Shown here piece after piece: positions 43,755 through 46,792 of a DNA stretch of 64,000 bases. The translations under genes and the position numbers were made by a program. The DNA lies in the NCBI GenBank assembly GCA_018649885.1, contig JABIHA010000094.1, positions 1 to 64,000 of the forward strand, written 5' to 3'. A model generated the notes under the pieces. It searched no databases. It worked only from the letters and a program-made list of their open reading frames with translations, and was not told the origin of the DNA. The number at the start of each line of letters is the position of its first letter. The stretch's first letter is position 1. The DNA comes from Bacteriovoracaceae bacterium. Lineage in GTDB: Bacteria > Bdellovibrionota > Bacteriovoracia > Bacteriovoracales > Bacteriovoracaceae.

Positions 43755-43890
43755 TAAGTGACCAAGGGAGACTCCCCAGTCTCCCGAGAATCAAGCAATA
43801 AAACTCCAAGCCCCTTTAACCCAAGAATTTTTTAAAAACCCTAACCCTACTCGGTGTCCGCCCATCACAAGCCTATGCAGGGAAGTGCCA
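43751..43890 (+). repeat. Intergenic repeat, copy A
   Basis: The unit runs from GAGGTAAGTGACCAAGGGAG through AGTCTCCCG, GAATCAAGCAA, CCAAGCCCCTTTAACCCAAG, AACCCTAACCCTACTC and GTGTCCGCCC to CCTATGCAGGGAAGTGCC. GGGAGACT-CCCC-AGTCTCCC inside it is a small hairpin. It is about 85% identical by eye to copy B, which follows in tandem. No coding frame. Confidence 0.85.
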
Positions 43891-43900
43891 GCAGATCGGT

Positions 43901-44045
43901 AAACCAAAGGAGACTCCTCCACAGTGGAACCCCAGTCTCCCGTGAATCAAGCAACTAAACACCAAGCCCCTTTAACCCAAGAATCCGAAAAAACCCTAAC
44001 CCTACTCAGTGTCCGCCCTTCACAAGCCTATGCAGGGAAGTGCCA
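43901..44045 (+). repeat. Intergenic repeat, copy B (tandem to A)
   Basis: It repeats copy A in order, with CCACAGTGGAAC inserted in the loop between GGAGACT and AGTCTCC, then GAATCAAGCAA, CCAAGCCCCTTTAACCCAAG, AACCCTAACCCTACTC and CCTATGCAGGGAAGTGCC. It lacks the long hairpin head of A. Start-to-start distance is about 142-150 bp. The 80 bp after it, to the Fic gene end, hold nothing recognisable. Confidence 0.85.
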
Positions 44046-44125: not shown

Positions 44126-45277
44126 CTATTCCGTTCCTCTTTTTAAAATAGACAAATACTCTGTAAGCTTTACCACTTTACCTGAAGGTGCAAGACTATA
44201 GTTAACTATCCCACGACGCTCAAATTCATCTAAAGTTCTTTGAACCGTTGGGTAATTAATATTGAATTCCTTTGAAAGCCTTGTAACAGATATAACAGGG
44301 TGCTCAATTAAAATGCTATAGATCGTATGAGCATAGGAAAGTTTTTTGATTTCTTTTGAAATTAATTCTCTTTGCGCTTCTACCAAATTAATTAATTCTC
44401 TAGCAGTTTTTGCTGCTTCAAAGGACGTGTTTCTAACGCCTCTTAAGAAAAATTTTATCCAGCCCTCCCAGTCACCCTTCAACCTAACATCCATGAGCAA
44501 TTTATAATATTCTGACTTATGCTCCTTAAAAAATAGACTCAAATATAACAACGGTTTATCTAAAATTTTTCTTTCACATAAAAGAAATGTTATTAGTAAA
44601 CGTCCAAGCCTTCCATTTCCATCTGAGAATGGGTGGATTGTCTCAAAATGTGAATGTAAAATTGCTGCTTTTATCAGAGGTGGTAATTTTGAATCTTGGT
44701 GATAATAGCTTTCTAGATCTCCCATATATTCCATAGTTATATTCGGGGGAGTCGGTATGAATGTTGCTTCTTGCAGAGTGCATCCTGCAGGCCCAATCCA
44801 ATTTTGGTATCGTTTGAATTCACCCGGTGATTTTTCTTGCCCTCTTACATCAGAAAGTAAAATTTTATGAATTTCCTTCATCAATCTTTGCGAAAATGGA
44901 ATATCCTCTAAGGATTTCAATCCTAAATTCATTGCTTCTATGTAGTTTACTACTTCAGCGACAGGCTTAACTTCACTCGTTTTTTCATTTACTTGAAGTA
45001 CCTCATCTAATGAACATTCCGTCCCCTCTATTTGGGAACTTAACAGAGCTTCTTTCTTCACATAGAAGGCAATAAACAAATCCGGATTTTTTAGGATTTT
45101 TGTTATTCCGTTTAATTCACCCAAAGCCCTATCTGCTTCAGATACTAAGTTAATCAACTCTACGTCATAGGCTAGACCCTCAGGGCCCCCAGGAAATAAC
45201 TTCTTTGGCACATACGCCAAGTAGCCAGTTGGTTGTTTAATTGTTGATCCAACATTATTCATAGCAACAGCTTTCAT
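44126..45277 (-). CDS. Class II Fic-domain protein (AMP-transferase) with C-terminal winged helix
   Basis: A 383-residue protein. N-terminal Fic_N part carries the inhibitory helix motif SSQIEG (residues 80-85, class II [S/T]xxxE[G/N]). The Fic core has HPFSDGNGRLGR (about 215-226) with catalytic His and the phosphate-binding NGR intact. The C terminus (about 310-375) is a winged helix: ISVTRLSKEFNINYPTVQRT and LDEFERRGIVNY. Such proteins, e.g. the Shewanella Fic, AMPylate proteins using ATP. Here the DNA-binding domain and the palindrome array upstream suggest autoregulation. The ATG at 45277 directly abuts AGGA; MNNVG at 45262 is a possible alternative start. Confidence 0.9.
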   Translation of the reverse strand: MKAVAMNNVGSTIKQPTGYLAYVPKKLFPGGPEGLAYDVELINLVSEADRALGELNGITKILKNPDLFIAFYVKKEALLSSQIEGTECSLDEVLQVNEKTSEVKPVAEVVNYIEAMNLGLKSLEDIPFSQRLMKEIHKILLSDVRGQEKSPGEFKRYQNWIGPAGCTLQEATFIPTPPNITMEYMGDLESYYHQDSKLPPLIKAAILHSHFETIHPFSDGNGRLGRLLITFLLCERKILDKPLLYLSLFFKEHKSEYYKLLMDVRLKGDWEGWIKFFLRGVRNTSFEAAKTARELINLVEAQRELISKEIKKLSYAHTIYSILIEHPVISVTRLSKEFNINYPTVQRTLDEFERRGIVNYSLAPSGKVVKLTEYLSILKRGTE

Positions 45278-45302: not shown

Positions 45303-45585
45303 TTAACATTTGAACCTCTAGATGTTAATATATTTGAACAACTTGAACATTTCAAGGTGTAAACGTTAAAATGTATACCCTAGCATTAACGTTCGGGTTC
45401 ATCGAGACCCTATATTTTAACATCTGTACATCTAAACGTTAATTCCCTAATGCCGCCCAAGTCTCTATCTACCTGATTACACAAATATTAACATTTAGGA
45501 CCCTAAACGTTAATAAGGTCTTCCGCGATTAATGCCTACGTTAATAGTCGTGAACCATATTAACGTTTGGGCCTTCAAACCGAAA
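45303..45585. repeat. Array of iterated 26-bp palindromes upstream of the Fic gene
   Basis: Consensus TTAAC[A/G]TTT-N8-AAACGTTAA. Complete copies: 45303-45328 (right arm AGATGTTAA), 45344-45369 (left arm TGAACATTT), 45417-45442 and 45488-45513. Degenerate copies or half-sites: 45386-45394 (TTAACGTTC), 45538-45544 (ACGTTAA) and 45560-45585. The eight-base centre differs in each copy, while arm length and spacing are constant, which is what a dimeric DNA-binding protein selects for. Confidence 0.85.
45327..45355 (-). promoter_or_regulatory. Fic gene promoter overlapped by two palindromes
   Basis: On the minus strand TTGAAA (45350-45355) and TATATT (45327-45332) are separated by exactly 17 bp. 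The palindrome at 45344-45369 covers the -35 box and that at 45303-45328 covers the -10 edge and start site. This is the layout of an autorepressed promoter. Confidence 0.7.
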
Positions 45586-45829: not shown

Positions 45830-46792
45830 ATGAAGATCACAAGCATACTCTCCATTCTCCTAATACTTACCGCTTCCCAAGCCCTAGCCTGCAAATGGCA
45901 ACCAGCAACCACTTGGGGATCTCTAAAGAAAAAATACATAAGAGAAGCCAGCGGAGTTGCCTCATCAAAAGCAAAACCAGGATTCCTCTACCACATCAAC
46001 GACCACGGAGACGGCAACAAAGTTTTCATCACAAACCAAAAAGGCAAAAAAACAAAAGTCATAAATATTTCTGGAAAAAATTTTAAGGACCAAGAAGACC
46101 TAGCAACTGGCCCTTGCCCAGGAGGCTCTTGTTTATTTATTGCAGATACAGGAAATAATGCACTCAAAAGAAAAGTCCTGAATATCATTATCCTCAAAGA
46201 AACCAGCGAGCTAGTTGATTTAAAAAAAGACTCTGAAACAGTAGCTCCACTTGGAGTTATTAAATTCAAATACCCTAAAAAAGGTAGACACGACTCAGAA
46301 ACACTTATGGTTCATCCAAATGGTGACATCTACATTGTTACTAAAGTTGAAAATGCAAAAAGGACTTACTTACCAAGCCAAATTTATCGAATCAAAAAAA
46401 AGGTATGGCATGACTATATTGCCAAAGCTCCTGCTACAGCAAAAAAGAAGAAGAAGAAAATTAAACCTGAATTAGTTGGTTATGTTAATCTACCTGAGTT
46501 TTATAATCCGAAAAAACCCAGAAACCACCTAATCACCTCCGGTGACATTTCTCCAGACGGAAAGAAGGTATTACTTCTTACCTATGGCTTTGTTATAGAG
46601 ATAAATTTGGATTTATCCAAGGCCACCCAAATTAAAATCGACAAAAATAATCGCAAATTATTCAACATCATCAACATCAAAGCTCTTCGACACCAAGAAG
46701 CAATCACTTTTTCTGAAAACGGTTCATCATTTTTGTATAATACAGAAGCCGGGAAGAAAAAAGCACGTATAATGAAAGTGACCTGCAAGTAA
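45830..46792 (+). CDS. Secreted beta-propeller-like protein of unknown function
   Basis: A 320-residue protein with signal peptide (ILSILLILTASQALA, mature start CKWQP). Repeated beta-rich segments such as GFLYHINDHGDGNKVFITN, KDQEDLATGPCPGGSCLFIA, DTGNNALKRKVLNIIILKE, DSETLMVHPNGDIYIVTKV and ITSGDISPDGKKVLLLTYGF resemble NHL/esterase-like propeller blades. A Lys-rich run (AKKKKKKIK, about residue 205) interrupts the fold. Catalytic residues are not evident. ATG without Shine-Dalgarno sequence. Confidence 0.68.
   Translation: MKITSILSILLILTASQALACKWQPATTWGSLKKKYIREASGVASSKAKPGFLYHINDHGDGNKVFITNQKGKKTKVINISGKNFKDQEDLATGPCPGGSCLFIADTGNNALKRKVLNIIILKETSELVDLKKDSETVAPLGVIKFKYPKKGRHDSETLMVHPNGDIYIVTKVENAKRTYLPSQIYRIKKKVWHDYIAKAPATAKKKKKKIKPELVGYVNLPEFYNPKKPRNHLITSGDISPDGKKVLLLTYGFVIEINLDLSKATQIKIDKNNRKLFNIINIKALRHQEAITFSENGSSFLYNTEAGKKKARIMKVTCK

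Follow-up and report, generated by a model that had tools for sequence, protein, structure and literature searches.

A probable multi-site operator array at the promoter of a SoFic-type Fic gene, and a phased spacing of upstream repeats that suggests self-repression in the family

In Phd-Doc, a type II toxin-antitoxin system, a toxin of the Fic/Doc fold is restrained by promoter autorepression. The Fic-HTH protein CccR (YPK_0951) of Yersinia pseudotuberculosis (PDB 7XUX) is an autorepressor of its own promoter; its HTH half binds AGATAATCAT-N26-ATGATAATCT near the -35 and -10 elements, and its toxicity and repression are separable (PMC9755527). CbFic2 of Coxiella burnetii (PDB 8cil) bound random DNA and a host histone target was proposed for it, and the same paper treats DNA binding by SoFic as still to be shown (PMC10628234). 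A 47-aa antitoxin gene lies downstream of EcSofic (PMC12249575). The SoFic family is widespread, and no role has been demonstrated for its winged helix. The locus described here lies in a 64,000-nucleotide stretch of a Bacteriovoracaceae genome (GCA_018649885.1, contig JABIHA010000094.1, positions 1 to 64,000), referred to below as the window.

The fic gene (44126-45277, minus strand) encodes a SoFic-type class II Fic protein of 383 aa with a C-terminal winged helix, assigned with Pfam, PADLOC and AlphaFold. Pfam recognized Fic_N, Fic and wHTH domains, with HTH matches at residues 315-361. The catalytic motif HPFSDGNGRLGR (residues 215-226; 44600-44635, minus strand) was located by translation and alignment, and the inhibitory motif SSQIEG (residues 80-85, S80-SQI-E84-G85; 45023-45040, minus strand) from invariant alignment columns. 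Both the inhibitory motif and the catalytic core HPFSDGNGR are intact, and both are invariant or nearly so in 11 orthologues. The protein thus has the class II arrangement, in which an inhibitory helix of the form [ST]xxxE[GN] lies N-terminal to HPFx[DE]GN[GK]R. The winged helix domain was delimited at residues 316-378 (44144-44332, minus strand) from the Pfam HTH matches and the predicted helices and wing strands, and the AlphaFold model places the predicted recognition helix, with Arg347, at residues 342-354 (44216-44254, minus strand). The original prediction of an intact AMP-transferase motif, inhibitory motif and C-terminal winged helix is therefore upheld by translation, alignment, Pfam and the model. 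Mean pLDDT of the model was 83 and pTM 0.85; the closest fold was that of Shewanella SoFic (3zcn, TM 0.80), and the next matches included CccR (7XUX) and CbFic2 (8cil).

The PADLOC SoFic profile was matched with 371 bits (E 2e-111) over residues 19-380 of the protein and 6-360 of the 361 profile positions. Its sequence thus places the protein, over its full length, in the SoFic family of PADLOC, and on the ground of this membership a role in anti-phage defence may be suggested. The score against the SoFic equivalog NF046030 of NCBIfam was 158 bits, below the curated cut-off of 550, which makes the protein a relative and not an equivalog of Shewanella SoFic. The separate antitoxin of class I Fic systems has no convincing small-gene candidate beside fic, the inhibitory motif here being intramolecular, and no recognizable AS1-like antitoxin gene was found at the locus. 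Five more distant Fic genes or fragments are present in the same genome (C73, C44, C20, C118 and C132).

Upstream of fic, an array at 45303-45585 contains four full 26-bp palindromes and three half-sites or degenerate sites. The consensus of the full sites is TTAAC[A/G]TYT-N8-ARA[C/T]GTTAA. Both strands of the window were searched with TTAACRTTT-N8-AAACGTTAA, allowing up to three mismatches. Ten matches were obtained, corresponding to five sites on both strands, all of them inside 45303-45585. When the window was shuffled 100 times with dinucleotides preserved, the mean was 0.37 matches and ten was never reached, so that the predicted array with its degenerate copies is real. The full palindromes begin at 45303, 45344, 45417 and 45488. 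No strand is assigned to the sites, except O3. O1 (45303-45328), O2 (45344-45369) and O4 (45417-45442) were delimited by the pattern search, O4 also by comparison with the TAAC-type loci described below, and O5 (45488-45513) is the most symmetric copy. The half-sites O3 (TTAACGTTC; 45386-45394, plus strand), at distances of 42 bp to O2 and 31 bp to O4, and O6 (TACGTTAAT; 45537-45545) were recognized in the sequence. In O7 (45560-45585) the right arm is degenerate, with three mismatches to the pattern. The steps within the array are 41, 42, 31, 71 and 72 bp.

When the 5.4-Mb genome was searched with the same pattern, the matches with zero or one mismatch were the four full sites only. Occurrence of the array genome-wide and independently of fic, named beforehand as an outcome that would speak against the proposal, was thus looked for in this genome and not found. 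The array also contains a weak terminator-like hairpin (GGGTTCATCGAGACCC, 45395-45410), which is on the other strand from fic.

The predicted fic promoter, TTGAAA-N17-TATATT, runs on the minus strand from 45355 to 45327 and matches 10 of the 12 consensus bases. In the promoter scan the -35 box TTGAAA (45350-45355, minus strand) falls inside O2, which covers it, and the -10 box TATATT (45327-45332, minus strand) is overlapped by O1, which touches it and covers the start region. The two palindromes thus lie where they had been predicted to lie, over the -35 and the -10/start region, at a distance of 41 bp or four helical turns.

The intergenic region is shared with a divergent gene (45830-46792). 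Its 320-aa product begins with a signal-peptide-like segment and matched nothing in Pfam or NCBIfam; the genome has two more copies of the gene, and homologues are scattered through the family. On the other side of fic, a unit of about 155 bp is duplicated in tandem at 43774-44045, between a tRNA-Asn gene and the end of fic, the blocks being 93-96% identical. An Rfam scan of the window returned tRNAs only. A tRNA gene was found within about 500 bp of fic at 8 of the 36 loci scanned (L010, L012, L013, L015, L120, L123, L131 and L134), and in six of these eight it is directed at the 3' end of fic; this proximity suggests that fic inserts next to tRNA genes. A repeat of the tRNA-Asn 3' end, as at the att-like boundary of an element, was sought in the window and not found.

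For comparison, 111 fic loci were gathered, partly within the same phylum and partly from named bacterial and archaeal genomes, 102 of them with usable upstream DNA; gene starts were assigned by script, and some loci are close kin (e.g., L012 and L122). The best palindrome in the 130 bp preceding the gene start exceeded its shuffles at p ≤ 0.05 in 59 of the 102 loci and all 60 shuffles in 40. Inverted-repeat lengths, pooled from all 102 upstream regions, gave a histogram too broad to be informative, whereas the TAAC-specific and direct-repeat versions were clear. TAAC...GTTA dyads with total lengths of 12 to 45 were counted in the last 200 bp before the start. Dyads of length 24, which form the core of the 26-bp operator, were present before 13 of the 102 orthologues, and every other length occurred at 0 to 3 loci; none of length 24 was found in the coding and downstream control regions. 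The palindrome sought before homologous fic genes is thus present at a subset of them. Among these TAAC-type loci the array in the window is the richest, with four full sites and 10 half-site matches, against one to three full sites in the others.

An arginine at the position of Arg347 was present in all 13 proteins with the dyad, and the dyad was absent from all 66 loci whose protein lacks it (Fisher, 2.5e-7, kinship ignored). When mapped on a catalytic-domain tree, the TAAC-26 operator was distributed over three separate clades, with the arginine in each; a kinship-aware sign test of arginine against dyad had only 0-3 informative pairs. Over all loci, the relation between half-site and recognition helix, given core similarity, was weak (partial Mantel r 0.10, permutation p 0.026). 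Taken as a whole, the orthologue comparison supports binding of the Fic protein to its own operator.

Spacing was analysed by the recurrence of 9-mers, with at most one mismatch, in the last 180 bp before the start of the 102 loci. A lag of 41 bp was found at 30 loci (1.0 expected). Lags of 40 (15 loci), 31 (17), 30 (9) and 51 (9) were also raised, and nearly all remaining direct-repeat lags were close to background. One of the lags 30/31, 40/41 or 51/52 was present at 67 of the 102 loci, against 7.9 in shuffles (maximum 12), a result that was stable to changes in word size, mismatches and dinucleotide shuffling; in control regions (coding, downstream and further upstream) the 41-bp lag occurred at 1 to 4 loci. 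After relatives were collapsed, 26 of 36 clusters under 65% identity retained the signal. Plasmid-borne relatives held out from the finding of the rule (n = 20) followed it in 16 cases, against 1.8 in shuffles, with 31 as the commonest lag. The quantized lags correspond to 3, 4 and 5 helical turns, and since the repeated sequences vary by locus, the conserved feature is a geometry, with three, four or five turns between equivalent half-sites. The steps of 41, 42, 31, 71 and 72 bp in the window follow this rule. Among the plasmid relatives, L153, L160, L161 and L166 have neighbours that look like a defence-island context. The relative on the Synechocystis PCC 6803 plasmid pSYSX, one of those found in laboratory cyanobacteria, adjoins a restriction endonuclease S subunit gene, and those on Thermus and Halosegnis plasmids adjoin DUF1156 and helicase genes.

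What was observed directly is the sites, their phasing, their location over the promoter, their absence from the rest of this genome and the recurrence of the design before relatives. We regard it as highly probable that the window contains the autoregulated promoter of a SoFic-type enzyme whose dimers read the palindromes through their own winged helices. As in CccR, the HTH is C-terminal in the same chain and a palindromic operator lies over its own promoter. Each 26-bp palindrome would be recognized by a Fic dimer through the winged helices at the C termini of its two chains, and occupancy of O1 and O2, four turns apart, would block RNA polymerase and keep a toxic AMP-transferase scarce. 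Distal sites, at whole-turn steps, could add dimers on the same face of the DNA, so that repression becomes tighter or its response steeper. On the basis of the sequence and of published work on CccR and SoFic we infer direct binding, repression, cooperativity, the role of the distal sites and toxicity or defence.

Control of fic by a separate regulator, encoded elsewhere and bound to the array, would fit the finding that some Fic-HTH proteins, such as CbFic2, bind DNA without sequence preference (PMC10628234), so that not every member can be assumed to bind a specific sequence. We nevertheless consider such a regulator improbable, because fic is the sole element common to the loci compared across phyla; moreover, the half-sites vary by locus, the sites are absent elsewhere in this genome, and the recognition-helix arginine common to all TAAC-type loci belongs to Fic itself. 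The position of the array in the intergenic region would also allow control of the divergent gene, or of both genes. However, the array ends 245 bp short of that gene and the 26-bp sites are absent upstream of eight of its homologues (two from the same genome, six from others), and we judge this very improbable. Least credible is an iteron-like, CRISPR-like or structural repeat array with no regulatory role: the repeats are several, similar and regularly spaced, but the palindromes cover a promoter, occur only before fic, and obey a spacing that recurs before orthologues with quite different sequences.

The original prediction went beyond autorepression to a self-regulating AMPylation switch. 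In such a switch, DNA binding by Fic would depend on its AMPylation state, or catalysis would depend on binding to the array. The catalytic and inhibitory motifs of the window protein are intact, and CbFic2 E66G became more than 20-fold more active with DNA (PMC10628234), which makes coupling of binding and catalysis possible in the fold. A catalytic mutant of CccR, however, still represses, and a dimer mutant loses repression and stays toxic (PMC9755527). Self-regulation through the protein's own winged helix is well supported by the comparison and has an experimental precedent in CccR, whereas no sequence feature points to an AMPylation switch, which we regard as an unlikely, if possible, addition to autorepression. 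We give little credence to a further variant in which the array would serve also as a reservoir and sensor: several Fic dimers would be kept inactive on the phased chromosomal sites, and stripping or destruction of the DNA (e.g., on phage takeover) would free both promoter and enzyme for AMPylation.

Phased tandem operators precede most of the SoFic-type genes examined, in many phyla, and self-repression by these proteins is therefore probably the rule. This suggests how cells that have no separate antitoxin tolerate an AMP-transferase that could kill them. The phased operators offer a direct way to predict the DNA read by each SoFic-type protein, and the seven-site array, extreme among the TAAC-type loci compared, should be a good substrate for the measurement of cooperativity.

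Like the window protein, CccR is a class II Fic protein with a C-terminal HTH and a promoter palindrome near -35 and -10. CccR has one operator, with 10-bp arms and a 26-bp spacer, whereas the palindrome in the window is a compact one of 26 bp and has seven sites. CccR is also secreted as a T6SS effector, a role of which the window protein shows no sign, and its fold matches the model more poorly (TM 0.55-0.57) than that of SoFic. SoFic (PADLOC and anti-phage Sofic; Shewanella SO_4266, PDB 3eqx and 3zcn) is the full-length family match and the best fold match. EcSofic has a downstream antitoxin gene, without a convincing counterpart at the window locus. CbFic2 is likewise a class II Fic protein with a winged helix and binds DNA, but the DNA bound was random and no operator is described. 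In Phd-Doc the antitoxin supplies the DNA-binding domain, whereas the window protein combines both functions in one chain. Since CccR is a published Fic-HTH autorepressor acting on a promoter palindrome (PMC9755527), the earlier statement that no description of this arrangement was known was wrong in principle. The open-access literature searched yielded neither the multi-site array nor the rule of phased spacing, and both the expansion of the array and the phased operator architecture seen across the family appear to be new.
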